A model generated the notes under the pieces. The model had not been told where the DNA came from, searched no databases, and was given only the letters and a program-made list of their open reading frames with translations. Below are positions 4,313 through 51,180 of a DNA stretch of 51,180 bases, piece after piece. Origin of the DNA: Gammaproteobacteria bacterium (GTDB taxonomy: Bacteria; Pseudomonadota; Gammaproteobacteria; GCA-001735895); assembly GCA_029862005.1 (NCBI GenBank), contig JAOTYD010000022.1, forward strand, positions 1 to 51,180, given 5' to 3'. Position 1 is the stretch's first letter. The number at the start of each line of letters is the position of its first letter. Made by a program: the position numbers and the translations under genes.

Positions 4313-4376
4313 TGGCCGAAGATTGCCTCCTACTTGGATTATACGAGGGTCTGCTCCCGAGAAAGCAGACGCTAAG
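4313..4376 (+). repeat. Dispersed intergenic repeat, copy E
   Basis: TGGCCGAAGATTGCCTCCTA, then CTTGGATTATACGAGGGTCT, then GCTCCCGAGAAAGCAGACGC. It aligns with copy B over its whole length. The terminal stem has changed on both arms (GTCTGCT with AGCAGAC), keeping the pairing. Confidence 0.6.
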
Positions 4377-4796: not shown

Positions 4797-5263
4797 GGTC
4801 GATTCTTTATTCGGGTTTATTCAGAAGATCTGCCACCTTATAAACGATGCTAACTGGTGGCGTTTTGTTCCTAATGTCTATTGGCCATCATCGACCTTAT
4901 ATCTCGTTATCAGGAAAGTTGTATCAATAGATGGACCTACTAACCAAAAAGTATAGATCAATTTCATATGAAACTTGTGTATTGGACTACCGCGTATCTC
5001 TGCTTTTAAATCTGGATAATTCAATGGCGGCTTATGGTCGAGGCACGAAGCTCGCTAAGCACTTTTCAGCGTCCGCTTCGGGTTAAAACAAACCTTCGTC
5101 CTTTATTGATTGGCTTCCGAAATCGACCAGCAAATGGTGTTCGGCAAATTTAAAAATGAACTAAGCGTCAATAAAGCCTGTCAGAATAACTTCCAGGTAT
5201 GCGTTTTAGCATTAACTGGAAAATAACTTACATTCACACCGTTATAATGAGGAGAGACAAACT
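4797..5263. other. Gene-free stretch between divergent genes
   Basis: This 467-base, AT-rich region separates the glutaredoxin-like gene from the bufferin-like gene. I see a short inverted repeat (GCCACC at 4832 with GGTGGC at 4856) in the leader of the minus-strand gene. Around 5068-5090 (CAGCGTCCGCTTCGGGTT) is a weak fragment of the dispersed repeat. At the right end lies the promoter of the bufferin-like gene. No convincing ORF or RNA gene is visible. Confidence 0.5.
5243..5256 (+). promoter_or_regulatory. -10 box and ribosome-binding site of the bufferin-like gene
   Basis: TATAAT at 5243-5248 is a perfect -10 hexamer, and GAGGAG just downstream is a strong ribosome-binding site 9 bases before ATG 5264. 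If the -10 box is used, the leader is very short. No good -35 hexamer is evident; TGGAAA at 5217 is three bases too far. Confidence 0.5.
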
Positions 5264-19062: not shown

Positions 19063-19683
19063 ATGATCAAGAAAATTATTTTACCATTAGTACTGTTATT
19101 TGGCCTGGGCAGTGGAACTGCTTTCGCTACCGAAGCACCAGCCACCAACCCGGCTCAATCTGCCGAAATGTTTAATCCGTTTGCCTGGATGGGCATGATG
19201 AATGCCGGCGTTCCCAATGTTCAGCAAATGAACCTGGCGCGCCCCGAAGGTTACCAGGTGTTTATGAATCCGATGAATTACGGCCAGTTCATGAACCCGG
19301 CGACCTACGGACAATTCATGACGCCTCAGTTCTACATGCAGTTTGCCGATCCAAACAACATGATGGCCTGGATGAATCCCGCTGCCTACAGCGCGTATAT
19401 GAATCCGGCTTCTTACATGCAGATGATGAATCCGATGGCATACATGCAGTTCATGAATCCTGGCACCTACATGCAGCCCATGAACCCGGCTAACTACCAG
19501 GTATACATGGATCCTAATACCTACATGTCCTGGATGAACCCGAATGCATACATTCCGGGTGGCACCACCAGCGCGAGCTATACCAACCCTGCTGCTGGTT
19601 TTAACTGGTTCGATCCAAATGCCTGGACCAGCATGATGGCACCCCAGGCCCAGGCTCAGCCGCAACAACAACCACAGCAGTAA
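19063..19683 (+). CDS. Secreted Met-Asn-Pro nonapeptide-repeat protein
   Basis: A 206-residue protein. A signal peptide (1-22, FAT/EAP) is followed by a central array (residues 65-163) of eleven gap-free 9-residue units of the form x-Q-[FYW]-M-N-P-x-[ATN]-Y. Degenerate units flank it (FNPFAW at 38-42, FDPNAW at 183-188), and there is a Gln/Pro tail. It is very rich in Met, Asn, Pro and Tyr, with no Cys. ATG follows a strong AAGGGGA ribosome-binding site. I know no characterised family. Regular aromatic repeats suggest a self-assembling or surface/structural protein, with sulfur-globule envelope proteins as one analogy; the Met content could also bind copper. It shares an operator type with the RND/DUF255 pair. 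Confidence 0.85.
   Translation: MIKKIILPLVLLFGLGSGTAFATEAPATNPAQSAEMFNPFAWMGMMNAGVPNVQQMNLARPEGYQVFMNPMNYGQFMNPATYGQFMTPQFYMQFADPNNMMAWMNPAAYSAYMNPASYMQMMNPMAYMQFMNPGTYMQPMNPANYQVYMDPNTYMSWMNPNAYIPGGTTSASYTNPAAGFNWFDPNAWTSMMAPQAQAQPQQQPQQ
19255..19551 (+). repeat. Eleven coding 27-bp repeats (9-residue MNP units)
   Basis: Every unit is exactly 27 bases and begins in register. Units 1-11 end in Tyr, except unit 4, which ends in Met. MNP is exact in 8 of 11 units; the others read MTP, ADP and MDP. At the DNA level the units have diverged at third positions, which suggests selection on the protein rather than a recent expansion. Confidence 0.9.
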
Positions 19684-25271: not shown

Positions 25272-26288
25272 TCAGCCTGTTTTCCGCTCCACCAGGTTAA
25301 ATTTAAGGATAAAGTGCACAAAGAGACCCAGCAGGCCAATCATCGCGGTCGCGAGCAACCACGGGCGAGTCCAGTCATAATCTACTTTGTATCCCATCCA
25401 GGTGGACAATTTTTCATAGCGAAGAATTCCGCCAGGCAATTCTAGTTCATCACCTGGCCGCAATGTATAGCGATGATCCTGATATCGCAGAACTAGCTGA
25501 TGCTGTTGCGGCACCTGAAAATTAAACTCCCGATCCTCAGGTAACACATTCTCTTCGATCTTCAGATACGCCCAAAGCTTGGTATCGGTTTCCGGTATCG
25601 TCCATTCCAAAGCCTGCTCGAATTCGTGAGTTGGATAAGCAGGCAAATGAATGCTGCCGACGACTTTTGATAAACTGGCAAATGGTTGCCACTCGAACAC
25701 CGGGGCGTAACCCTTGTTATGCGAGGTATAAAACCGATAGTGGCCTATTATCAAAGGCACGTGATCACCTATCTCCAGTGTTTGCTGCAAGCCGTCAGCT
25801 GTGGTTAGCATCAACTGATTAACCGTTTTATCCCTTTTGATCCCTGCGTGATAACGAATCTGAAAACCCAGGTTTGTAAATCGGATTGCTGACAGCCCGT
25901 AACGGTGCCACGGCCCCTGCTGGACATTTTCCAATTGTCCGGAAAATTCTTCGTGCTCGGCGAGTTCCAGCGTGGCCTTGAAAAAACTCATCCTGCCCGT
26001 GAATGCCAACAGAACCAGCGCGATCAATGCAAAATGAAATATCATCAGCGGCCAGTTATTTTTCAGGATATCTCGAGTTGCCAGCGCCAGTAAAAAATTC
26101 ATTATCAGCAATCCCGTCGGCAGCGCGATTATCCAGATTCTTTGCGGCAGCGAAACCTGGTAATAAACCACGATCGCTAGCGCAAGCACGAACAATAACA
26201 GCAAGGTGCTGCGGTTAGACGCCAATGCATCTACCAGGCCGAGCCGTGGCCGCGGAGCAGCGCTAGGGTGGATTTTCGCAATTTTCAC
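25272..26288 (-). CDS. ResB-like cytochrome c maturation protein
   Basis: A 338-residue inner-membrane protein with three N-terminal membrane helices (about 28-48, 53-70, 80-100), a large periplasmic beta-rich domain (about 105-310) and one C-terminal helix (LLATAMIGLLGLFVHFILKF). This is the layout of ResB/CcsB, the partner of CcsA in system II cytochrome c assembly, which brings heme and reduced apocytochrome together. It is the last gene of the cytochrome series and overlaps the end of the 11-heme gene by 26 bases (GTG start at 26288). Its CcsA partner is at 48080. It is shorter than ordinary ResB. Confidence 0.82.
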   Translation of the reverse strand: MKIAKIHPSAAPRPRLGLVDALASNRSTLLLLFVLALAIVVYYQVSLPQRIWIIALPTGLLIMNFLLALATRDILKNNWPLMIFHFALIALVLLAFTGRMSFFKATLELAEHEEFSGQLENVQQGPWHRYGLSAIRFTNLGFQIRYHAGIKRDKTVNQLMLTTADGLQQTLEIGDHVPLIIGHYRFYTSHNKGYAPVFEWQPFASLSKVVGSIHLPAYPTHEFEQALEWTIPETDTKLWAYLKIEENVLPEDREFNFQVPQQHQLVLRYQDHRYTLRPGDELELPGGILRYEKLSTWMGYKVDYDWTRPWLLATAMIGLLGLFVHFILKFNLVERKTG

Positions 26289-28674
26289 TGCTGTCCCTCA
26301 TCCAGTCACGTCCAATTTCACCATTGCCCGGCGCTCCCGCCGAGCCGCAATTGGTCTCTTCCCAGTTGCCACTGGTGGCAAAGCTGACGATCTTCAGCAT
26401 CGCGTTCAGGTAGTAAGGACCGTTGGTATATCCGGCGGTCGTATTATTCCTAACCTGGGTGCCAGCAGGCTGCCCTCCCTCGGGCCCGACGTCGTTCAGG
26501 TTGACCAGCAAACCCTTGTTCTTCCAGCCATGGGGCACCGCGACGTGGCACCAGCTACAGCGCAATCGACCGATCTTGTCGGCGTGATATGAATGCAGGT
26601 TGGGATCCCTGGAGCCGCCGAAGCCGCTGGCGCCATCGCCCCGGGTCGCATAGAGATCGTGATCGTGGCACTTGAAGCACAGGTCGTTGGTATTGCCGGT
26701 ACCGGTGTTCTGGCTCCAGTCTCCCTTGAGAATAAAATTATTGGTCGAACCGTGCGGCCCCCAGGGGTTGCCATTCTCGCCACCCGACGGTGTCGAGGTG
26801 CCGATACCGGTGTTCGATCCATGACAATCGGAGCAATACATAGTCTGATTGCCAACATCAGCATTGCCATTCCACGGTGACTCAAAATTAGCCGAATTGG
26901 TGTTACGAATCGCCAGCGTGCGGCCAGTGTTATCGATCACCGGATGCCAGGAGCGATGATTATTGCTCGAATAGGCACTCGCGGCGCCGGAATCGAGGGT
27001 GCTTACTTCGCCCTTGTGACTTAAAGGCGCCTGGAATTCAATTGCCTGGTTGGTGTATTCGGTTACGTCATTGATGCCAGATAGCGTATTGCCGCCAGTA
27101 TTGCCTAGCGTCGGCGGGTTGGCGCCATAGGCATAATCTGAATGACATTTCAAACAGATCTGATACTCGCGCGTCACATGCGCGCTGCCAACTGCCGTAC
27201 TGGCGCCGAATCCGCCATCGCCGCGTTTGACGATATAGCTAATCGGGAAATTGCCCGGATCGAAATTACTCGAACCGTATACGGGCTCGACGCCCCAACT
27301 CCCGCGCAGCACGCCGGACGCGATATTGGTATGCCCGGTCGCATGGTTATGGGTTCCCGCCTGGGCTGCGCCAGTATTGTTGAACAAACGATTCTTCAAC
27401 ACCCGGTGCGGGTTATGACAATCGGTACATTCGACATGACGGTTGCCGAGATTGAATCTAGATTTGTCCTCACTTAGATCGGCATCCAGAGCAGCATGGA
27501 TCTCACTCGCAGTCTGTTGATCGCTGTTGGTGATCGGCATGTGCGTCAAACCGGAAACAAAGTCAGATTTGATATCGGGCACCTGAAACGAAGCATTGCC
27601 CTGGCCATTGAGTACGCCGCCGTCGGCGGAGTGACAGGTGTAACAGGTTTCTTCGAGCGCCGCGTTACCGCCGGTCTTCGGGCTCAGAAAACTGTCGGTG
27701 CCTTCCCTCAACAGATGGCGCGACCCCTGCACCGTATGGGTGTCATGGCAGTTCAGGCAACTCGCCTGCCACACCGGTAAATTTAACGGGAACTCTCGTA
27801 AATTAGCCGCGGCTGTCGTATAGGTTTCATTGGCGACCTGCGGGTCGGCATGCGCCGACTGCGACCAGGCCAGACCCAGCTTGTCGTGACAGGCCAGGCA
27901 AATGATGTCGTTGGCATCATCGAAGTTACCGCCAGTAGCAAAACCCTCCTGGAAGCGATGCAGGCGCAAAAACTTGATGTTTTTGGTGATGTCGGAATCT
28001 CGAATGTGCGGATCGTGGCAGCTGGTGCATTGCAGCTGACCGTTTTCCAGTGGCACCAGTGGTTTGACGCCCGGCGCACGGTTGGCGATGTGGGCCTCGA
28101 ACGCGGGATTCCGTAACTCACCGTCGGCATTCGCCAGCGTACTGTCGTAGGTGAAGGATATCGGATGATCGTTGCTCAGATCGGTCCCAAGCTTACGTGT
28201 AAACCCGGTGTTATCGCCCCCACCGGAAGGCATGACCCCGCCGGCACCGGTGCCCGACATATTGATAGTCACGTTGCTCTGCGCGTTGACCACGTTAACC
28301 TGTCCAATTGCGATTGTGCCGTCATGGCAAGATAGGCACAGTTTCGAGCTGCCGCCCGGCGTGGCCGCGATATCGTTGGCATCGATGGTATCGGAAGTGT
28401 ATGGCGTATAGGCCGCGACAGAGGCCTGCCGATTCCATAGCGGTGCGTTGGGTATCGCCTCTGCCTGATGCGGAGTATGACAAAACACGCAAATCTGACT
28501 TTCGGTAACCGCCGTTATGCTGCCCGGGCCGCTAACCGACAAATTGTGCCGGGTATTGGCGGTATCGGAAATACGTGCCGCCTGATTTGCAAAACTGACG
28601 ACCAGCAGCATGAGCAGCAAACTGCCCGCCAGCATTAATCGACGTAAGCAAAGCAGTGGTCGGCAAGCATCCAT
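26263..28674 (-). CDS. Eleven-heme c-type cytochrome (doubled CXXCH type)
   Basis: An 803-residue exported cytochrome. ATG 28674 is chosen because it lies one base after the stop of the NHL gene and opens a signal sequence (MDACRPLLCLRRLMLAGSLLLMLLVVSFANQAA). Eleven CXXCH sites are spread along the chain: CVFCH, CLSCH, CTSCH, CLACH, CLNCH, CYTCH, CTDCH, CLKCH, CSDCH, CFKCH, CSWCH. The first three modules (NTRHNL...CVFCHTPH...PLWNR, CLSCHDGT, SNDHPI) align with the tetraheme protein at 36778, so the two are paralogous. About 120 residues after the last heme have none. It is a strong candidate for the large electron carrier of the cluster, periplasmic or at the cell surface. Confidence 0.9.
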   Translation of the reverse strand: MDACRPLLCLRRLMLAGSLLLMLLVVSFANQAARISDTANTRHNLSVSGPGSITAVTESQICVFCHTPHQAEAIPNAPLWNRQASVAAYTPYTSDTIDANDIAATPGGSSKLCLSCHDGTIAIGQVNVVNAQSNVTINMSGTGAGGVMPSGGGDNTGFTRKLGTDLSNDHPISFTYDSTLANADGELRNPAFEAHIANRAPGVKPLVPLENGQLQCTSCHDPHIRDSDITKNIKFLRLHRFQEGFATGGNFDDANDIICLACHDKLGLAWSQSAHADPQVANETYTTAAANLREFPLNLPVWQASCLNCHDTHTVQGSRHLLREGTDSFLSPKTGGNAALEETCYTCHSADGGVLNGQGNASFQVPDIKSDFVSGLTHMPITNSDQQTASEIHAALDADLSEDKSRFNLGNRHVECTDCHNPHRVLKNRLFNNTGAAQAGTHNHATGHTNIASGVLRGSWGVEPVYGSSNFDPGNFPISYIVKRGDGGFGASTAVGSAHVTREYQICLKCHSDYAYGANPPTLGNTGGNTLSGINDVTEYTNQAIEFQAPLSHKGEVSTLDSGAASAYSSNNHRSWHPVIDNTGRTLAIRNTNSANFESPWNGNADVGNQTMYCSDCHGSNTGIGTSTPSGGENGNPWGPHGSTNNFILKGDWSQNTGTGNTNDLCFKCHDHDLYATRGDGASGFGGSRDPNLHSYHADKIGRLRCSWCHVAVPHGWKNKGLLVNLNDVGPEGGQPAGTQVRNNTTAGYTNGPYYLNAMLKIVSFATSGNWEETNCGSAGAPGNGEIGRDWMRDSSENCENPP

Positions 28675-28675
28675 C

Positions 28676-29767
28676 CTAGTTATTCCCCAGGTACTGGAAC
28701 ATCGAAACCCGGCTGTTGAGCATATCCGAGACATAAATCCTGTCCTTGTCATCCACCCAGATACCGGTAGGTTGCGCAAACTGACCGGGCGCTGAGCCGG
28801 AACCCCCGATCGACATCAACAGGCTGCCCTGCGGATTGTAAATCAGGACATGATCATAATAACTCTCGGAAACATAAATATTACCATCCGAGTCGAGCGC
28901 AATTCCCTTGGGACGGGAGAAATTACCGACATACAATCCGCGATGACCAACGCTTTGCTTAAACCGGCCTTGCCGATCGAGTATTTGTATTCTTGCATTT
29001 AGCGAATCGACCACGTAAAGCCGGCCCAGCCGATAAACCAGATAAGTCGGATGATTAAACTGCGCTTCTCCAGTTCCCGCAACACCCCAGGTATCGAGCA
29101 ACTCCCCGCCTGGGCTAAACAACTTGATATCACCCGCGGCGGTATCGCTGATAAAAAACCTCTGATTATCCGGGTCATAGGCGATCCCGGTTGGCCGTTT
29201 CAATACCTCGTGGCCAAAGCTGTTGATCACTTCTCCAGTCAGGCTAAATTGATAAATCAGCGCCAACTCGGAATCGGTCACCCAGACCGAGTCTTCGGCG
29301 TGCGCAACGCCAATGGGACTTGGCAGAGAAATATTCAGACTGCGCTCGTTCCAGACGGCAAATTCACCGAGTATTTCATCGAACACAAAAATGGACTGCA
29401 GTCCTGGGTCGGTAATATAAATCTTGCCCCGGTTATCGGTGGCCACCTGCTGCGGGCGCAACAGGTCGAGCGGAGATATTTTTTTCGCATCCAGACCCAC
29501 GATGGCGGCCAACAGGCGCGCCAGACCACTGCGTTCCGGTGTATCGGCGCGATTGGACTCGCCGTAAATATGGCCGATAAAAGCATATCGGGGCACCGCC
29601 GGCAGGGACGGCCAGACCTGAATACCCCGATCGGTTTCGGCGATCCCGGGCATCTTGAACAAATGCTGGTTCGAAATCGTGCTACAGCCCGAAATCGTCA
29701 GTAAAAGCATTATTATCAGGGTTGTAAGCAAGTACCCCCTAGCCAATGGAGCGCAAATGGGGAACAT
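28676..29767 (-). CDS. NHL-repeat beta-propeller lipoprotein 1
   Basis: A 363-residue lipoprotein from ATG 29767 (a start at 29788 is possible). The signal ends in TISGC, a lipobox. The mature part has five to six NHL units with the RPQGIAVD/GxIYVSDxxNxRI pattern, for example HPTYLVYRLGRLYVVDSLNA and RPKGIALDSDGNIYVSES. It would form a six-bladed propeller at the membrane surface. It is homologous to the lipoprotein at 38728. Such propellers often scaffold cytochrome complexes, but this is inference. It sits between the triheme and 11-heme genes, with overlap at the upstream end and one base of spacing downstream. Confidence 0.88.
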   Translation of the reverse strand: MFPICAPLARGYLLTTLIIMLLLTISGCSTISNQHLFKMPGIAETDRGIQVWPSLPAVPRYAFIGHIYGESNRADTPERSGLARLLAAIVGLDAKKISPLDLLRPQQVATDNRGKIYITDPGLQSIFVFDEILGEFAVWNERSLNISLPSPIGVAHAEDSVWVTDSELALIYQFSLTGEVINSFGHEVLKRPTGIAYDPDNQRFFISDTAAGDIKLFSPGGELLDTWGVAGTGEAQFNHPTYLVYRLGRLYVVDSLNARIQILDRQGRFKQSVGHRGLYVGNFSRPKGIALDSDGNIYVSESYYDHVLIYNPQGSLLMSIGGSGSAPGQFAQPTGIWVDDKDRIYVSDMLNSRVSMFQYLGNN

Positions 29768-36777: not shown

Positions 36778-37626
36778 TTACTTGCTATGACATGCCAAAC
36801 AGACCGCACTGCCATCGTTGGAGGTTCGCAAGAAGGTGGCATTGGTGGTATGCGGGTCGTGGCAGCTTGCGCATTCTACGAAAGGCTGCAGCGCTCCACT
36901 GTCAATACCAGCCACCGAACGGGTGTAAAGCAGCATATCGGTCTTTTCACGAGTTCCGTTCGGCGTCGTTTCGGAATCAACCCACCAGACGGTGGTACCG
37001 TTAAGATCGGTGGTACCAGGTGTCGTGAAGTCAGGATCATTAGTCGCCGCGGTCGGCGCGGCCGCGGTGATTCCACCACCACCGTACTGGATACCGATCG
37101 GGTGATCGTTACTGAGATCCGATGTCAGGTTAGTAATGGCGCCGGCATTAAGCTGACCAGAGGTCTGATTGGCACCACTCCAGACACCCGCACTGTAGGT
37201 CGGGTTATTGATTCCTGATCCCGGTTCGTTCAATACGGTATCCATCGCCTGGGTTCCGTCATGGCATGACAGACAGGCAATTGAAACCGAGCCGACCGGA
37301 GCTTCGGCACCCTCGAGGGTGGCCGAATTCAACGTCGCATAGGTCGTGTAGCTTGCCGGATCAGCCAGGGTCCGGTTCCACAAGGGTACCGCGGCACTGG
37401 TTGATCCGCCGTGTGGCGTATGACAGAAGACGCAAACTGCCGCGGTTCCGCTAAAAGAGTTTGCCCCGGTAACCGTGGAACTGGATCCCAGGTTATGCCG
37501 GGTATCCTCGACAGCTGCACTGGCGTCGGTCCAGCTGAGTAGGCCGAAAGCCACGATGGCCATCGCCAGAAGCAGTGTAACTACCCCGGCACCTACTGAC
37601 CTGATTTGTAAAGTTAAACTATTCAT
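36778..37626 (-). CDS. Tetraheme c-type cytochrome (doubled CXXCH type)
   Basis: A 282-residue exported protein (signal about 10-38, ending SAAVE). Four CXXCH sites: CVFCH, CLSCH, CASCH and CLACH, the last six residues from the C-terminus. The opening DTRHNLGSS...CVFCHTPHGG...PLWNRTL and the CLSCHDGTQ and SNDHPIG elements align with the first part of the 11-heme protein at 26263. It is the first gene of the long minus-strand series, behind a likely sigma-54 promoter, and is followed by a strong hairpin. That suggests it is the most abundant product. Confidence 0.9.
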   Translation of the reverse strand: MNSLTLQIRSVGAGVVTLLLAMAIVAFGLLSWTDASAAVEDTRHNLGSSSTVTGANSFSGTAAVCVFCHTPHGGSTSAAVPLWNRTLADPASYTTYATLNSATLEGAEAPVGSVSIACLSCHDGTQAMDTVLNEPGSGINNPTYSAGVWSGANQTSGQLNAGAITNLTSDLSNDHPIGIQYGGGGITAAAPTAATNDPDFTTPGTTDLNGTTVWWVDSETTPNGTREKTDMLLYTRSVAGIDSGALQPFVECASCHDPHTTNATFLRTSNDGSAVCLACHSK

Positions 37627-37675: not shown

Positions 37676-37691
37676 TGCAGCAACCATGCCA
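37676..37691 (-). promoter_or_regulatory. Sigma-54 promoter of the tetraheme cytochrome series
   Basis: The minus strand reads TGGCAT-GGTTG-CTGCA, close to the -24/-12 consensus TGGCAC-N5-TTGCA, with GG and GC at the required spacing. The start point would be near 37664, 38 bases before the tetraheme ATG. A TTTTCTC/GAGAAAA palindrome lies about 160 bases further upstream. Confidence 0.6.
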
Positions 37692-37815: not shown

Positions 37816-37835
37816 TTTTCTCGCGATTGAGAAAA
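37816..37835. promoter_or_regulatory. TTTTCTC-N6-GAGAAAA palindrome, candidate activator site
   Basis: A 7-bp perfect inverted repeat, about 160 bases upstream of the sigma-54 start predicted for the tetraheme series, where enhancer-binding proteins usually bind. A similar palindrome at 38679 and partial ones at 41993-42141 suggest a shared site for the response regulator at 42784. Confidence 0.5.
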
Positions 37836-37896
37836 ATTAGTTCGCGATATTCTCGATTCATAGAATGTTCTTGACAGGCCGTCATCACGAATCGAG

Positions 37897-38597: not shown

Positions 38598-38613
38598 GGC
38601 AATTTTCGCGCCA
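38598..38613 (-). promoter_or_regulatory. Sigma-54 promoter of the NrfJ-like gene
   Basis: The minus strand reads TGGCGC-GAAAA-TTGCC, which has nine of eleven consensus positions including the GG and GC pairs. The start would fall near 38586, 27 bases before the ATG at 38559. Confidence 0.6.
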
Positions 38614-38678
38614 TTCTCTGAAAAGTCTTACCAGGACGGGCTTAGCGGACTGTTTGATGATTAAAACCCAGGGACAGC

Positions 38679-38694
38679 TTCTCAATTTTGAGAA
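38679..38694. promoter_or_regulatory. TTCTCAATTTTGAGAA palindrome, candidate activator site
   Basis: Two 7-base arms, TTCTCAA and TTGAGAA, around TT. It lies about 100 bases upstream of the start predicted for the NrfJ-like gene, a typical enhancer distance. The same TTCTCA/TGAGAA arms recur upstream of the tetraheme and regulator genes. Confidence 0.55.
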
Positions 38695-38727
38695 TTTAAT
38701 GCTGGTTGCGATTGCGAAATGTTTGTT

Positions 38728-39822
38728 TCAGGGTTGCAGGCTTGGGTCATGCACCAACCAGCCCTGTTCCGCGGATATCTCGGCTGGCCTGAATATATCC
38801 ACCTTCCTGAAATACTGATCAACCATGTAGACCCTGCCATCTTCGTCGATTGCCAATCCCGCCGGCAGCATGAACCTGGCAGGCCCGGCACTGGAATTGC
38901 GCGACCCGACTGCCATTAACAACTGCCCATCCGAATTGAATATCTGAAAATTACCGAACGCGGTATCGACGACGTAAGCGTTGCCCTGTTTATCGACACC
39001 AATGCCTTTAGGCCTGGAAAATTGACCGCTTTGCCGACCGATCGAGCCAAAGCTGCGCACGAACTCCCCTTCCGGGGTAAATACCTGCACCCGAAAGTTA
39101 CCGCCATCGACAACATAGAGGTTTCCTTCGTTATCGATGGTTGCATCGCGCGGCAGATTCAGTTCGCCCTCTGCCTGACCGCGTTTGGAAATGGTATGCA
39201 ACAAGCTGCCGCTCCATGCGTCGAACACGAGGACCCGGTGTCGATTGCTGGTAACTCCGCCTGTATCGACGACATAAAGGCGGCTGCCATTCGGGTTGAC
39301 CGTCAGCCCGGCCGGTCGGTCGAACATCTCGGGCTCACCCAGACGGCGCTTGAAATTGCCGTCCCTGTCATAAACCAGCACCTGTTTTAAAGATGCGTCG
39401 CAAACAAAAAGATTGCCGTTCAAGTCGACGTCCAACCCCATCGGTTTAACCAATTCACCCGGACCATCGGTACCAATTTCAATGAACTTTGCCTCACGTA
39501 TATCGAAAGCAAACACCAGGCGTTTCAACGTATCGCTGACAAATACACGGCCTTTGTGCACGGTTACACCAAAAGGCTTTCCCATACCGATTCCGCTTCG
39601 ACTGACACCTGTAATCATGCGCTGAAACTGCGATTCGCCCGATTCGATCTCGACATCCGCACTGCTGAGCAGGCTGCGTTCGTAGAAAAATCGGGCTTCG
39701 TTCGGCGCTGGTGGAAACACCGGCATCTCCATTTCCTCGCCTGGTGGCGAGTTTGACGCACAGGCGCTTAACAACAGAAGTCCGACGGGCAACAACAAGA
39801 ATGATGGGATTAGCCTGAACAT
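38728..39822 (-). CDS. NHL-repeat beta-propeller lipoprotein 2
   Basis: A 364-residue lipoprotein with signal ending LLSAC (lipobox, Cys about 21). Six NHL-type blades follow, for example KPMGLDVDLNGNLFVCDAS, RPAGLTVNPNGSRLYVVDT and RPKGIGVDKQGNAYVVDTA. It is homologous to the lipoprotein at 28676, with the same order of parts and an FxYERSL-type opening. Two such propellers bracket the cytochrome series. It is read from a sigma-54 promoter, divergent from the triheme gene at 39972. Confidence 0.88.
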   Translation of the reverse strand: MFRLIPSFLLLPVGLLLLSACASNSPPGEEMEMPVFPPAPNEARFFYERSLLSSADVEIESGESQFQRMITGVSRSGIGMGKPFGVTVHKGRVFVSDTLKRLVFAFDIREAKFIEIGTDGPGELVKPMGLDVDLNGNLFVCDASLKQVLVYDRDGNFKRRLGEPEMFDRPAGLTVNPNGSRLYVVDTGGVTSNRHRVLVFDAWSGSLLHTISKRGQAEGELNLPRDATIDNEGNLYVVDGGNFRVQVFTPEGEFVRSFGSIGRQSGQFSRPKGIGVDKQGNAYVVDTAFGNFQIFNSDGQLLMAVGSRNSSAGPARFMLPAGLAIDEDGRVYMVDQYFRKVDIFRPAEISAEQGWLVHDPSLQP

Positions 39823-39859: not shown

Positions 39860-39875
39860 AGCAAGAGCTGTGCCA
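39860..39875 (-). promoter_or_regulatory. Sigma-54 promoter, leftward
   Basis: The minus strand reads TGGCAC-AGCTC-TTGCT, an exact match to the -24/-12 consensus. The start would lie near 39848, 26 bases before the ATG of NHL lipoprotein 2. Confidence 0.85.
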
Positions 39876-39904
39876 ACCCGTCGTAAACGGTGGTAAACGC
39901 TTTA

Positions 39905-39920
39905 TGGCACTAAAGTTGCT
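39905..39920 (+). promoter_or_regulatory. Sigma-54 promoter, rightward
   Basis: TGGCAC-TAAAG-TTGCT, an exact match to the -24/-12 consensus, with a start near 39932 and the triheme ATG at 39972. The two divergent promoters are only 29 bases apart, and the gap contains a direct repeat, TAAACG-GTGG-TAAACG. Confidence 0.87.
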
Positions 39921-39971: not shown

Positions 39972-41003
39972 ATGAGAAAATTGCTGTCTTTGATTGTTTT
40001 GCATTTGCTGTCAGCCGCAGTATCCGTGCATGCTCAGGACATCGATGCAGGGTCGCTTTATGCAGACTATTGTTCAGTCTGTCACGGCGACAGAGGTGAC
40101 GGCGAAAGCCACGCTAAACAGGGAATGATTCCGCCACCGCGGGATTTCACCAGCCCCACCTCGGCGCTGGAACTCACCCGGCCAAGAATCATTAACGCAA
40201 TCCGCAACGGTATACCCGGCAGCGCGATGAGCAGCTGGAAATCGCGCCTCAACGATGCCCAGATAGAAGCGCTAGCCGACCTGCTACAGTCACGATTCAT
40301 GCTGCCAGGCGCAACCGCAAGCGCCACCGAGGGCAGCAAAATTTACGCTGATTACTGCTCGGTTTGTCACGGGGACAACGGCCAGGGCGCGCTATGGGCT
40401 ACTGCCGGTTTATCGCCCCAGCCTGCAGACTTTACCAACTCAAAGTTTCAGTCGACGATGACCCGCGACCACATGATCCAGTCGGTTAGTTATGGCCGCC
40501 CCGAAACCGCAATGACCGGCTGGAAGAAACGCCTGGCTGATAAACAGATTGAAACCGTTGTCGACTACGTCATCGGCGCTTTCATGCCCCAGGTTAGCGA
40601 CAAAAAGCTGAGCGATAAAGCCGATCACAAACACAGCGATGGACATACGCATCAGCATACCCATGCCGATCCCGACACCGAGCTCAGTGTTTATATGAAC
40701 CAGCGCCTGACCGATGGATTACAGGGCGATGCCGAGCGCGGCAAAGCCCTGTACTTGTACAACTGCGCCACCTGCCATGGTGAACAGGGCGATGGTAGGG
40801 GGCCAAGGGCCTACTTCATCAATCCCAAGCCGCGCAATTTCCTGCACGCCGCGTCACGCGCTTCGCTCAACCGTCCGACGCTGCAACGTGTCATCGGCAA
40901 AGGCAAGCTGCGCACGGAAATGCCCGCCTGGGAAAAGGTTTTCGACGCGCAGCAGATTGCCGACGTCGGCGAGTTCGTATTCGTTACCTTCATTCAACCT
41001 TGA
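39972..41003 (+). CDS. Triheme class I cytochrome c with His-rich linker
   Basis: A 343-residue exported protein (signal 1-21, SVHAQ). Three monoheme cytochrome c domains: CSVCH (about 36), CSVCH (about 134), CATCH (about 269), each followed by PPPRDF, PQPADF or PKPRNF and a Met ligand segment (SAMSSW, TAMTGW, TEMPAW). Between domains 2 and 3 is a linker with six His in sixteen residues, alternating with Asp, Ser and Thr, likely able to bind a metal. It is the first gene after the rightward sigma-54 promoter, and the 41014 gene follows by 10 bases. The domains match those of membrane-bound oxidoreductase cytochromes, so a periplasmic electron carrier role is likely. Confidence 0.9.
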   Translation: MRKLLSLIVLHLLSAAVSVHAQDIDAGSLYADYCSVCHGDRGDGESHAKQGMIPPPRDFTSPTSALELTRPRIINAIRNGIPGSAMSSWKSRLNDAQIEALADLLQSRFMLPGATASATEGSKIYADYCSVCHGDNGQGALWATAGLSPQPADFTNSKFQSTMTRDHMIQSVSYGRPETAMTGWKKRLADKQIETVVDYVIGAFMPQVSDKKLSDKADHKHSDGHTHQHTHADPDTELSVYMNQRLTDGLQGDAERGKALYLYNCATCHGEQGDGRGPRAYFINPKPRNFLHAASRASLNRPTLQRVIGKGKLRTEMPAWEKVFDAQQIADVGEFVFVTFIQP

Positions 41004-41013
41004 GCAAACCTGC

Positions 41014-41991
41014 ATGCCCCTGATTTATCGTGTATTTCTGTTGCTGTTGATTACAGTCACAGTGCCTGTTGTCGGTGCCAACAATAAGGATGCAAGTGCA
41101 GAAATGCATGAACGGGGACGCGCAATTTACAACTATCGCTGTTACTTCTGTCACGGCTATTCAGGCGATGCCAAAACCCTCACCAGCACTTATCTCGATC
41201 CGCCGCCGCGCAACTTCGCCCGCACCGATCCGGCGTCGCTATCACGTCAGTCCATGATGGAAACCGTCAGGCGTGGCAAACCGGGGACAGCGATGCATGG
41301 TTTTTCGCGGGTGCTGGATGACCGCGAAATTGCCGCCGTGGTTAAATTTGTGCGTACCGAATTCATGCTGGAACAGCGCCCGAACACTCGCTACCACACC
41401 GTTGCCAACGGGTGGCCAAATCATGATCGTTACCGTGACGCCTTCCCGTTTGCGACGGGAGATATACCACTGGATCTACCCTGGCAACAATTGAGCCTGG
41501 CGCAGGTACGCGGGAAGCAGCTTTATTTAACCAGCTGTATCACCTGCCACGATCGTGCGGTGGTCAGCGATGAAGGAGAAATCTGGAGTAAACAGTCGGT
41601 ATCCTACCCGCGCAACAATTATTCACACACTATAGTCGATGTAGTTTCATCAGCCAGCGTTTATGCCAAACACGATATTGATCCACAAGTGGATAAGCTG
41701 TCGGATCGGGCCAGCGAAGGTAAGAAGCTTTGGCGTCAAAACTGTGCTTTCTGTCATGCCGCAGACGGCACCGGCGATAACTGGATAGGCAGTTTTCTCA
41801 AGCCCAAACCGCGCGATCTGACAAACGAAAACTTCATGCGACATATGACAATGGATTTGTTACTGGAGCGTATTCGCAACGGTCTTAAAAACACATCCAT
41901 GCCAGCCTGGAAAAACGTACTCAGCGACTACGAGATTCGACAAATAATCAGCTACATCGATGAAGCCTTTTATCATTTCGAGAAGAATTAG
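41014..41991 (+). CDS. Triheme class I cytochrome c, second of pair
   Basis: A 325-residue exported protein from ATG 41014 (upstream in-frame sequence overlaps the preceding gene). Signal 1-21 (VVGAN). Heme sites: CYFCH, CITCH and CAFCH. Domains 1 and 3 have clear Met ligand segments (TAMHGF, TSMPAW). The middle module is short and atypical, without an evident Met, so its heme may be bound differently or be five-coordinate. Domain order and the PPPRNF/PKPRDL elements show homology to the upstream triheme protein. It probably forms a pair with it. Confidence 0.88.
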   Translation: MPLIYRVFLLLLITVTVPVVGANNKDASAEMHERGRAIYNYRCYFCHGYSGDAKTLTSTYLDPPPRNFARTDPASLSRQSMMETVRRGKPGTAMHGFSRVLDDREIAAVVKFVRTEFMLEQRPNTRYHTVANGWPNHDRYRDAFPFATGDIPLDLPWQQLSLAQVRGKQLYLTSCITCHDRAVVSDEGEIWSKQSVSYPRNNYSHTIVDVVSSASVYAKHDIDPQVDKLSDRASEGKKLWRQNCAFCHAADGTGDNWIGSFLKPKPRDLTNENFMRHMTMDLLLERIRNGLKNTSMPAWKNVLSDYEIRQIISYIDEAFYHFEKN

Positions 41992-41992
41992 A

Positions 41993-42141
41993 TTCTCAAA
42001 TCTGAGACAATCTTTGTATCAATTCTCATTTTTAGGAATAATTTTGATTTAACCTGACAACATCGAGCGCTCAAATCAATGATTCTGGACTGAATTCTCA
42101 GAGAGCTGACTGTTTTTACCGGTTTTTAGCCCGCATTGAGA
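41993..42141. promoter_or_regulatory. Cluster of TTCTCA/TGAGAA half-sites before the regulator operon
   Basis: TTCTCA-AATC-TGAGAC (41993-42007), TTCTCA at 42022, TTCTCAGAGAG near 42096 and TTGAGAA near 42136 crowd this gap of about 170 bases. They resemble the palindromes at 37816 and 38679. This would fit autoregulation of the response regulator encoded downstream. No good -24/-12 sequence was found here. Confidence 0.4.
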
Positions 42142-42163: not shown

Positions 42164-42778
42164 ATGGCACCTGAATTGCTAAACAAAAAACGAGTCATGA
42201 ATACAACTATATCCACTAATCGGCAACTGGGTAACAGGCAATTGGCCAGGGCTCTGTGCATCGGACTGCTGATGCAAGGGTTGACGGGCTGCCAGGACGC
42301 CGAAAAACCACAGCCTGGGACGGGAGATGCATTCCCCCTGTCGCTCTTCGAAAAGATGATCCCTGTTGACAACGGTAACGTCGACACAGAAGGCAAGATA
42401 CTGTTGATCAACTTTTGGGCAACCTGGTGCGCGCCCTGCCGCGAAGAGATGCCGGCACTGCAAGAGTTAAGCGACACTCTCGACCCGGAGCGTTTCGCGG
42501 TAATTGGAATCTCGGTTGACGAAGATCGTAACCTGATTCGGGAATTCATGCTGCAGTACGAAATTCGTTTCCCGGTTTATCAGGACGACAAGTTTCGGCT
42601 CGCGGGCGAATTGCTCGGAATTAAAACCTTTCCCGAAACCTTTATTGTTTCTCCACAAGGCTTAATTACCAGGCGCATCAGCGAGGCTTTACCGCCGGAT
42701 TTCGGCATGACCGAGCTATTCATCGAATCCGGCGAAAAGGCCGACACAATCAAATCTGACTCCAGGATAAATGGGTAA
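42164..42778 (+). CDS. TlpA/ResA-like thioredoxin-fold lipoprotein
   Basis: Up to 204 residues from ATG 42164 (GAGG just upstream); ATG 42197 is an alternative. The signal ends LTGC, a lipobox, so it is membrane-tethered. The thioredoxin domain has NFWATWCAPCREEMPALQEL with the C-A-P-C active site and the cis-Pro in GIKTFPETFIV. TlpA/ResA proteins reduce apocytochrome c thiols before heme attachment, which fits the system II maturation genes in this cluster. Five bases separate it from the regulator gene. Confidence 0.88.
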   Translation: MAPELLNKKRVMNTTISTNRQLGNRQLARALCIGLLMQGLTGCQDAEKPQPGTGDAFPLSLFEKMIPVDNGNVDTEGKILLINFWATWCAPCREEMPALQELSDTLDPERFAVIGISVDEDRNLIREFMLQYEIRFPVYQDDKFRLAGELLGIKTFPETFIVSPQGLITRRISEALPPDFGMTELFIESGEKADTIKSDSRING

Positions 42779-42783
42779 CTCAT

Positions 42784-44148
42784 ATGCCTTCGCTACAACT
42801 ATTAATCATCGACGATGAACCAGCGATTCGGCAAATACTGTCGAAAGTCGCCGCCGACGCGGGTCATACCGTAACGGTTGCGGCTAACGGCGAAGAGGCG
42901 TTAACGAAACTCGCCAAGGGAGACATCGACGTAGCGCTGTGCGACATTCGCATGCCCGACCTTAGCGGCATCGAGGTTGTCGAAAACGCGCGCCGCCAGG
43001 GTATCGATACCCAGTTCCTGATGATGACCGCCTATGCCTCGGTCAACACCGCGATCGAGGCGATGCGCGCCGGCGCTTATGACTACATGATCAAGCCTTT
43101 GCGTAACGAGGATTTTCTCAATCGACTAGAGCAACTCGGCGATTTCATCCACCTCAAATCCGAGAACAAGGTACTGCGCGAGCTGATCAAGAATCAAAGC
43201 AGCGAATCCTGGGTGATGAACTCGCCCGTGATGCAGGCAGTCGAACGCCTGGTGCTAAAGGTCGCACAGACTTCCAGCACGGTGCTGATAACCGGGCCGA
43301 GCGGCACGGGTAAAAGCGTCATTGCCGAATTAATCCATCAGAACAGCCTGAGGGATGACCGACCGTTCATTCCCGTCAACTGTGGCGCGATCCCGGAAAA
43401 CCTGCTCGAAAGCGAATTTTTCGGTCACACCAAGGGCGCGTTTACCGGGGCCAGCAAGGCAAAGCGCGGATTATTTGTCGAGGCCGACCAGGGCACAATA
43501 TTTCTCGATGAGATCGGGGAACTACCGCTTAACCTGCAGGTCAAGCTCTTGCATGTCATCGAGGATCAGAACGTGCGCGCGGTTGGCAGCGAACAGCCCA
43601 GGAAAATAGACGTGCGCATTATTGCCGCCACCAACAAGGACCTCGACAAGATGGTGCAACAGGGCGATTTTCGCGAAGACCTGTACTTCCGGCTGAACGT
43701 GTTCCAGATCCCGCTACCCACGCTACAACAGAGGAAGGAGGACCTGCCCGAGCTGATCCGACATTTCCTTCGCAAGGAAAGCTTGAAAATGGGATTGGAT
43801 GGCCCCGTCGAAGTTCAGCCGGCCGCTATGCAGAGCCTGCTGACCTACAACTGGCCCGGTAATGTGCGCGAGTTGCAAAACGTTGTCGCGAGGTCACTGA
43901 TCCTGTCGGAAAACGGCATCATCGATGTTTCGGATCTACCGCAAAATATCCGCTCCTCCGAGTACATCGGCTACAGCGATGGTAACAGCTGTCAGGACAA
44001 CCTGAAGCGACAGCTGCGTAACTATGAACTCGCGATCATCAAGGCGGCGATCGACGATGCCAACGGGGATCGCAAGCTGGCTGCCGATCGCCTCGGCATC
44101 GGCGTTTCCAGTCTTTATCGAAAACTCGATAACTCGCTAGAGCGTTAA
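42784..44148 (+). CDS. Sigma-54-dependent response regulator, NtrC family
   Basis: A 454-residue regulator. The receiver domain (1-120) has the acidic pair D10-D11, phosphoacceptor D54, T82 and K104. The AAA+ domain (about 145-380) has Walker A GPSGTGKS (171-178), the sigma-54 contact loop GAFTGA (218-223) and Walker B around TIFLDEIG. The C-terminal Fis-type helix-turn-helix ([21 protein letters not shown]) binds DNA. It should drive the -24/-12 promoters seen at 37676, 38598, 39860, 39905 and 50257. The kinase at the window end is a likely partner. It is co-transcribed with the TlpA-like gene and the genes downstream. Confidence 0.93.
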
Positions 44149-50256: not shown

Positions 50257-50272
50257 AGCATTTAGCGTGCCA
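50257..50272 (-). promoter_or_regulatory. Sigma-54-like promoter before the Sel1-diheme gene
   Basis: The minus strand reads TGGCAC-GCTAA-ATGCT, one mismatch from the consensus. The start would be near 50245, leaving an untranslated leader of about 110 bases, which is long but possible. Confidence 0.5.
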
Positions 50273-50290: not shown

Positions 50291-51180
50291 CTAGGTATGC
50301 GCCTTGGTGCTCACGCTGTCCTGTAAAACCCCGTCGATTGGCAAAATAACATGTACCTGCGCACCCTTCCCCTCTTCACTTTCGATGCTCATTTCGCCCC
50401 CATGCTCACGCACAATCGTGTCGCAAAGTGAAAGACCGAGGCCACTGCCCTTGCCCACCGGTTTGGTGGTAAAAAACAGCTCCATAACATGCCCAAGTAC
50501 CTCTTTTGACATGCCAGGACCATAATCCTGAACACAAACATGAACTCGATTTCCTTCGAGTTCGCTCTTAATGACAATACAGTCTTCTTCCAGGTCGATG
50601 GCCGCACAGGCATCCATGGCATTGATCAGCAGATTCATGAACACCTGAGTCAGTTGATCGGCCACTCCGACAATGGCCGGAAGGTTCTTATCTAGTTGCA
50701 ACTGCACGCCAATCGAACTGAATCTGCGGTCATAGGATAAAAGTCCCGCAGTGCTGCGTAGCAACTCATTCAGATCCAGTAACTCGCGTTCACGTGGTTT
50801 GGGCGATGAGAAATCGGCGATTTCCCTCGTTATTTTCCCAAGTCTGAGAATTTGTTCGTTGATCAGATCGATATTTCGACTTAACTCATCATCTTGATCG
50901 GCGCTGGTGTACGAATGCTGGACTGCGGAGACAGCACCGGCAATTGCCGCAATTGGATTGCCTACTTCGTGCAGTATTCCCGCAGCCAACTGCCCGATTG
51001 CCGCCATTTTATCCTGATGAAAAAACTGTTGCCGGGTAGTCTCAAGTTCACGTTGAGCCTGTAGACGCCCGGTGATGTCATGCACGACCACTATATAACT
51101 GCTATCCCCATTGGTCTTTTCGAGCGGTCCGACCCAGAGATCTGACGGAAATTCGGTGCCGTCGATGCGTTTAAAAACAC
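50291..51180 (-). CDS. PAS-domain sensor histidine kinase, NtrB type (partial)
   Basis: The reading frame is open to the window edge, so the N-terminus lies beyond it. The part seen is the end of a PAS domain (FKRIDGTEFPSDLWVGPLE, YIVVVHDITGR) followed by a HisKA with the phosphoacceptor His in GILHEVGNPIAAI, and a HATPase_c with N box (MNLLINAMDAC), G1 (DYGPGM) and G2 (GKGSGLGLSL). The HEVGNPI form is that of kinases paired with NtrC-family regulators. It is a likely partner of the regulator at 42784, with the whole cytochrome plus-strand set between them. Confidence 0.88.
   Translation of the reverse strand, partial: VFKRIDGTEFPSDLWVGPLEKTNGDSSYIVVVHDITGRLQAQRELETTRQQFFHQDKMAAIGQLAAGILHEVGNPIAAIAGAVSAVQHSYTSADQDDELSRNIDLINEQILRLGKITREIADFSSPKPRERELLDLNELLRSTAGLLSYDRRFSSIGVQLQLDKNLPAIVGVADQLTQVFMNLLINAMDACAAIDLEEDCIVIKSELEGNRVHVCVQDYGPGMSKEVLGHVMELFFTTKPVGKGSGLGLSLCDTIVREHGGEMSIESEEGKGAQVHVILPIDGVLQDSVSTKAHT

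Follow-up and report, generated by a model that had tools for sequence, protein, structure and literature searches.

Two predicted sigma-54 promoters lie back to back between the genes for an NHL-repeat lipoprotein and a three-haem cytochrome in the window, that is, the whole 51,180-nt stretch of gammaproteobacterial DNA analysed here. Sequence evidence confirms the promoter pair and places it inside an apparently conserved regulon, of which we found no description in the literature searched. Our whole explanation, which we consider probable, is that this divergent pair belongs to a regulon formed by the response regulator RR454 and a putative binding palindrome over a Uet-type gene cluster. 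One promoter would drive NHL2 leftward and the other would drive two three-haem cytochrome genes rightward, both as parts of a regulon over the extracellular electron-transfer cluster. A histidine kinase, whose pairing and signal are presumed, would phosphorylate the NtrC-type RR454, which would then bind tandem palindromes (TTCYCR-N4-YGRGAA), contact the sigma-54 polymerase and open the promoters using ATP. RR454 would also open the promoter of its own operon, resulting in positive feedback, and palindromes at distances of about 1.2 kb and 2.1 kb may serve the central pair. What we observed directly are the sites with their conservation, the palindromes, and the co-occurrence of palindrome and regulator.

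Results

The divergent pair and its conservation

Both sites fall within the 149 bp separating NHL2 (38728-39822, minus strand; Pfam NHL, 81 bits; lipobox-like LSAC; UetH/I-like by description) and tri343 (39972-41003, plus strand), which encodes three cbb3-type cytochrome c domains with 3 CXXCH motifs. The NHL2 site, TGGCACAGCTCTTGCT, occupies 39860-39875 on the minus strand, and the cytochrome site, TGGCACTAAAGTTGCT, occupies 39905-39920 on the plus strand; they face outward and are separated by a spacer of 29 bp. An earlier note had placed two TGGCAC-N5-TTGCT sites on opposite strands, 29 bases apart, in a 149-base gap where NHL lipoprotein 2 and the triheme gene diverge, and both the sites and the gap proved to be exactly as stated. 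The usual 12-nt rule predicts transcript starts at about 39849 and 39931, for which the note had given 39848 and 39932. Both sites match TGGCAC-N5-TTGCW perfectly, including GG near -24 and GC near -12. The note's sigma-54 reading is supported, as the genome encodes rpoN (PF04552, 237.8 bits), GG and GC are retained in all 20 orthologous sites and the gene for an NtrC-type activator lies at a distance of 2.9 kb. Sigma-54 promoters are thus the best-supported reading of the pair. The note was largely right in this respect but overlooked the larger regulon, with its palindromes upstream of promoters.

For conservation within the family, 41 genomes were searched, and close orthologs of NHL2 were found in 10, including the genome under study; a search at the order level gave no genomes beyond these 41. 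Both outward-facing sites were present in all 10 gaps; neither side exceeded one mismatch in eight of them, and the remaining two (G038 and G032) had two mismatches on one side. Within TGGCA, the T, both Gs and the A did not vary in 20/20 sites, and neither did the T, G and C closing in the -12 GC. The gap sequence outside the sites could not be aligned among the ten genomes. The spacers between the sites were 12, 12, 13, 15, 16, 29, 29, 32, 60 and 61 bp; they form a few groups resembling lineages, so the genomes count as fewer than ten independent cases. In 9/10 genomes the divergent cytochrome gene was visible; the contig of G038 ends before it. When 2000 Markov-shuffled versions of each of the 10 gaps were examined, sites on both strands at one or fewer mismatches appeared in none of them.

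The distant sample came from a scan of a genome collection that gave 80 loci, 71 of which were left after dropping nine duplicates of family genomes. Among the 29 loci with a divergent three-haem-like gene 60-450 bp from the NHL gene (one of them, L055, is a close relative), both sites were present in 13 at two or fewer mismatches and in 7 at one or fewer; permuted patterns gave a mean of 0.23 (maximum 3) and 0.01 (maximum 1), respectively. Distant loci with the pair include those of the culturable relatives Noviherbaspirillum denitrificans (L105) and Ramlibacter alkalitolerans (L076). The pair was missing in many other distant loci, e.g., Aromatoleum, Rhodocyclaceae and Woeseiaceae, and of the 27 loci in which over 450 bp separated the three-haem gene from NHL2, just one had a site upstream of that gene at one or fewer mismatches. 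The pair is therefore common but not universal among distant loci. More distant NHL2 paralogs (34-40% identity; G031:C207, G032:C78, G038:C546 and G033:C253) suggest second copies of the cluster in the same family, with that of G031 on the same contig. The short loci around these paralogs (L017, L020, L021 and L022) contained no sites at one or fewer mismatches.

The earlier note had proposed comparing site density across the genome. Density was not raised, with 6 perfect TGGCACN5TTGCW sites in 3.99 Mb versus 5 for a reversed control pattern, but three of the six are clustered here, inside 2.3 kb of the window. Since the control gives 5 versus 6, a lone perfect site is near background and means little, and the weight rests on the clustering and conservation of the sites. 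The three perfect sites outside the window lie about 37 bp before a flagellar gene that we take to be fliL-like (contig C6), beside ribosomal protein genes (C24) and on C69. At one or fewer mismatches, 198 matches were found versus 149 in the reversed control; therefore, single imperfect sites are mostly chance.

Other promoters and upstream palindromes of the cluster

We scanned the family clusters with a -24/-12 matrix built from the 20 orthologous sites. The tetrahaem cytochrome gene (36778-37626, minus strand) is preceded by TGGCATGGTTGCTGCA at 37676-37691 on the minus strand, which has two mismatches; a site was found in 9/9 family contigs reaching there, 11-55 bp ahead of the gene. The operon of a TlpA-like gene and the regulator is preceded by the perfect site TGGCACCTGAATTGCT at 42165-42180 on the plus strand (5/5 family contigs). 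A transcript from this site would have a leader of only about 6 nt, the likely start codon being at 42197, which speaks against our explanation. A weaker candidate with two mismatches, TGGCGCGAAAATTGCC, lies before the gene downstream of NHL2 (38598-38613, minus strand).

The palindrome TTCYCR-N4-YGRGAA was found about 80-180 bp upstream of the tetrahaem and TlpA-like/response-regulator promoters, mostly as two copies 30-32 bp apart that start at about -143/-175, -134/-166 or -79/-109 from the -24 box. In the window, the palindrome matrix located copies at 37817-37834 and 37849-37866 (32 bp apart) for the tetrahaem promoter and at 41992-42009 and 42022-42039 (30 bp apart) for the TlpA/regulator operon. 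Another palindrome, at 38678-38695, lies just past the NHL2 stop codon; it had this position directly behind the stop codon in 9/10 family genomes, and in 9/10 a -24/-12 site with two or fewer mismatches followed 46-104 bp beyond it. Because the matrix was trained on the family sites that it scores, the distant loci serve as the independent test. The palindrome was present beside the NHL gene in 45/71 of them at one or fewer mismatches, commonly followed by a -24/-12 site, compared with a mean of 1.25 for 179 permuted versions. The highest permuted counts were 41 (TTCCYR) and 40 (TTYCCR), both near-copies of the motif, and then 15. The strict palindrome occurred 11 times in the own genome versus 3 times for the reversed control; three copies are in the window, including one inside a histidine kinase gene.

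This copy, at 50835-50850, is followed about 560 bp downstream by a -24/-12 site with one mismatch (50257-50272, minus strand), which stands before a Sel1/cytochrome gene. The kinase gene itself (50291-51180, minus strand) encodes the C-terminal part of a PAS histidine kinase, the rest being on contig C51, and its product is a candidate partner of RR454.

The candidate activator RR454

RR454 (42784-44148, plus strand), encoded 2.9 kb from the divergent pair, has the domains of an NtrC-type response regulator, namely a receiver (Pfam Response_reg, 95.9 bits), an AAA+ sigma-54 activation domain (Sigma54_activat, 236.8 bits) and a Fis-type HTH (HTH_8, 34.5 bits), and is our candidate for the activator of the regulon. 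As it is encoded behind the 42165 promoter, it would control itself. RR454 shares its domain order with AtoC and NtrC, which gave its best NCBIfam scores, but identification as either protein proper was rejected at 444.9 bits versus a cut-off of 714 for AtoC and 398.8 versus 558.6 for NtrC. Identification as PrsR was also rejected (329.8 bits versus 502.6).

To follow the regulator, 38 genomes were picked from the 71 distant loci after the palindrome scores had been seen and before the regulator search. An RR454 ortholog was found in 23 of them (49-59% identity), and the other 15 had only weaker paralogs, with at most 43% identity among the matches listed. By the first sorting, the ortholog was present in 21/22 palindrome-'positive' and 2/16 'negative' genomes. 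With the palindrome defined at one or fewer mismatches, 20 genomes had both, one had the palindrome only, three the regulator only and 14 neither (Fisher p 9e-7, kinship-confounded); at two or fewer mismatches, the corresponding counts were 21, 4, 2 and 11 (p 7e-5, likewise kinship-confounded). This co-occurrence is confounded by ancestry, because the regulator-positive set consists mostly of Betaproteobacteria. The regulator orthologs have genes of the same cluster as neighbours: in the 20 ortholog regions that were read, the propeller gene prop375 was found in 17 and a histidine kinase match just upstream in 17. The region of the recognition helix was near-invariant across 25 sequences (five from the family and 20 from distant genomes), one of which ends inside the helix. 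As a separate observation, six of the 20 regions (L201, L203, L204, L207, L208 and L209) had a -24/-12 site without mismatches within the regulator gene, in its 3' part at about +1184 to +1196, which may reflect coding constraint or an internal promoter.

Discussion

How the central pair is activated

An upstream activator site is usual for a sigma-54 promoter, although it is not strictly defining. Around the central pair, no palindrome with one or fewer mismatches occurred within 400 bp in any of the 10 family genomes, a search that could miss another type of activator site. A search for exact dyads in the gap and its flanks gave nothing above shuffles, and a search for conserved 6- and 7-mers in the gaps gave no activator-site candidate. 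On the NHL2 side, the palindrome lies about 1.2 kb from the pair in 9/10 family genomes; G005 has an extra one-mismatch palindrome at 0.8 kb, and in G031, which is without the 1.2-kb copy, the nearest is 2.1 kb away. On the other side, palindromes lie about 2.1-2.2 kb from the pair in all five family genomes with sequence there. Sigma-54 activators can act over distances of about 1.2-2.1 kb, so activation of the central pair from these palindromes is plausible. Particularly, we tentatively propose that the pair may be a hub without its own enhancer, a scheme to which we give well under an even chance. The RR454 arrays about 1.2 kb and 2.1 kb off, each serving its nearby promoter, would loop in to fire both central promoters, and one activator would couple several transcription units in a scheme old enough to be found in both Beta- and Gammaproteobacteria.

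Several other readings have to be weighed. The strongest is that the central pair consists of real sigma-54 promoters under a different activator with an unrecognised site, RR454 serving only the promoters near palindromes. We regard this as a serious minority possibility, consistent with the empty 400 bp on either side of the pair and with the seven strong sigma-54 activators encoded in the genome. However, no other conserved dyad or word was found near the pair, which lies inside RR454's own conserved cluster and is flanked by palindromes on both sides in 5/5 genomes extending far enough, with the left one at 2.1 kb in G031. A second reading, which seems improbable to us, accepts the promoters but makes the polymerases mutually exclusive at the two sites, so that the pair would switch expression to either NHL2 or the cytochromes. 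Given the size of a holoenzyme footprint, the 12-16 bp spacers in 5/10 genomes would bring two holoenzymes close together or into contact, but the 29-32 or 60-61 bp spacers in the other five leave room for both, and the family shows no selection for fixed spacing.

The same variation in spacing bears on a third reading, in which the pair would be not two promoters but one large inverted repeat bound by a repressor, serving as an operator or hairpin. Geometrically the two sites are indeed an inverted repeat, but we rejected this reading as very improbable because the spacer ranges from 12 to 61 bp; moreover, the variable N5 differs between the arms, the same motif stands singly and correctly oriented before other genes of the cluster, and it equals the published sigma-54 consensus as given in the accessible part of that report (PMC2725144). 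A chance match in one genome, which the near-equality of perfect sites and reversed control might suggest, has a negligible probability and is already contradicted by the retention of the pair in 10/10 family gaps amid unalignable surroundings and by the shuffle and distant-locus permutation controls.

The cluster and known systems

The genes under the predicted regulon resemble an extracellular electron-transfer cluster. The haem counts are 11 (838 aa), 4 (282 aa), 3, 3, 3 and 4, together with a rotamase and two NHL proteins. The undecahaem cytochrome (26263-28779, minus strand; 11 CXXCH) is UetJ-like and matches PDB 7tfs, which we take to be the OmcE filament, with an E-value of 2.2e-20. The tetrahaem cytochrome (4 CXXCH) is UetA-like and is homologous to the same solved filament subunit at the sequence level (phmmer, E 1.7e-23). 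A second three-haem cytochrome gene (41014-41991, plus strand; start taken from the ORF) is the probable operon partner of tri343. The candidate for the Uet porin, a 586-aa protein, had no Pfam match.

The Uet complex has been described, in the text available from two reports, as undecahaem, tetrahaem and three-haem c7 cytochromes with a peptidyl-prolyl isomerase, a barrel-like protein and two NHL proteins (PMC10734462, PMC12575090). The haem counts, rotamase and two NHL proteins of the window fit the available description of uetABCDEFGHIJ from 'Candidatus Tenderia'/Tenderiales, a comparison made by description only (PMC10734462). In the accessible portions of these Tenderia-type descriptions, neither sigma-54 nor a dedicated regulator is mentioned (PMC10734462, PMC12575090). 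The earlier note had called sigma-54 control of such a region notable; the sigma-54 part stands, but the notability has to be tempered, because the RpoN regulon of Geobacter sulfurreducens, which has the same -24/-12 consensus, already links sigma-54 to cytochromes of extracellular electron transfer, as far as the text available from that report goes (PMC2725144). The same excerpts do not name omcS, omcE or NHL and do not describe an RR454/palindrome circuit (PMC2725144). The PrsK/PrsR system of Betaproteobacteria (PEP-CTERM) is an NtrC-type pair whose surface-protein targets have RpoN-dependent -24/-12 promoters and an enhancer predicted upstream of them, according to the accessible text (PMC9850573). 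The NtrC-type control is alike, but the targets in the window are cytochromes and RR454 scores below the PrsR cut-off. The kind of system is thus already known, and the interest lies in the target genes and the enhancer layout.

The circuit was also not reported in the available text of work on Desulfovibrio response-regulator motifs (PMC3333781), the Tenderia transcriptome (PMC5371394), PCC3/PCC4 clusters (PMC5566968), the Gallionellaceae pangenome (PMC10734462), Leptothrix genomes (PMC13386937) and electroautotrophy (review, PMC12575090), and in an article on sigma-54 and the cell exterior the words cytochrome and electron are absent (PMC3162934). We found no description of such a circuit in the literature searched, the scope of which was partial texts, with most subscription papers and the original Uet paper outside it. 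In the parts of the literature examined, knowledge of Uet/OmcE-like clusters is limited to genes or expression data. Our analysis offers a concrete and testable control circuit for such a cluster, with a candidate sensor kinase, an activator, a putative binding palindrome and predicted promoters, and this circuit could explain when such microbes build external electron wires.

Further observations extend beyond the window. Its right end overlaps contig C51, on which the cluster continues with the remainder of the kinase and genes that we presume to be nrdG/nrdD-like. Beyond these genes, about 5 kb past the right end, C51 (4777-5037; L155, G000) has a histidine kinase gene preceded by tandem palindromes and by a second pair of back-to-back -24/-12 sites (minus strand at 4940, plus strand at 4977). 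This second kinase next door, with the same promoter type, gives another entry point to the signal. Contig C69 (3972-4160; L154, G000) carries a third back-to-back pair with palindromes. On its plus side lies a gene at 4358 resembling a high-potential iron-sulfur protein, and its minus promoter faces about 400 bp without a clear gene, possibly a small RNA; a search of this unit for a terminator found none, and a DNA search with C69 gave short scattered matches in 12/41 family genomes. Elsewhere in the window, the gene at 19063-19683 encodes a protein that looks secreted and consists of repeated MNPxxY/F-type units.
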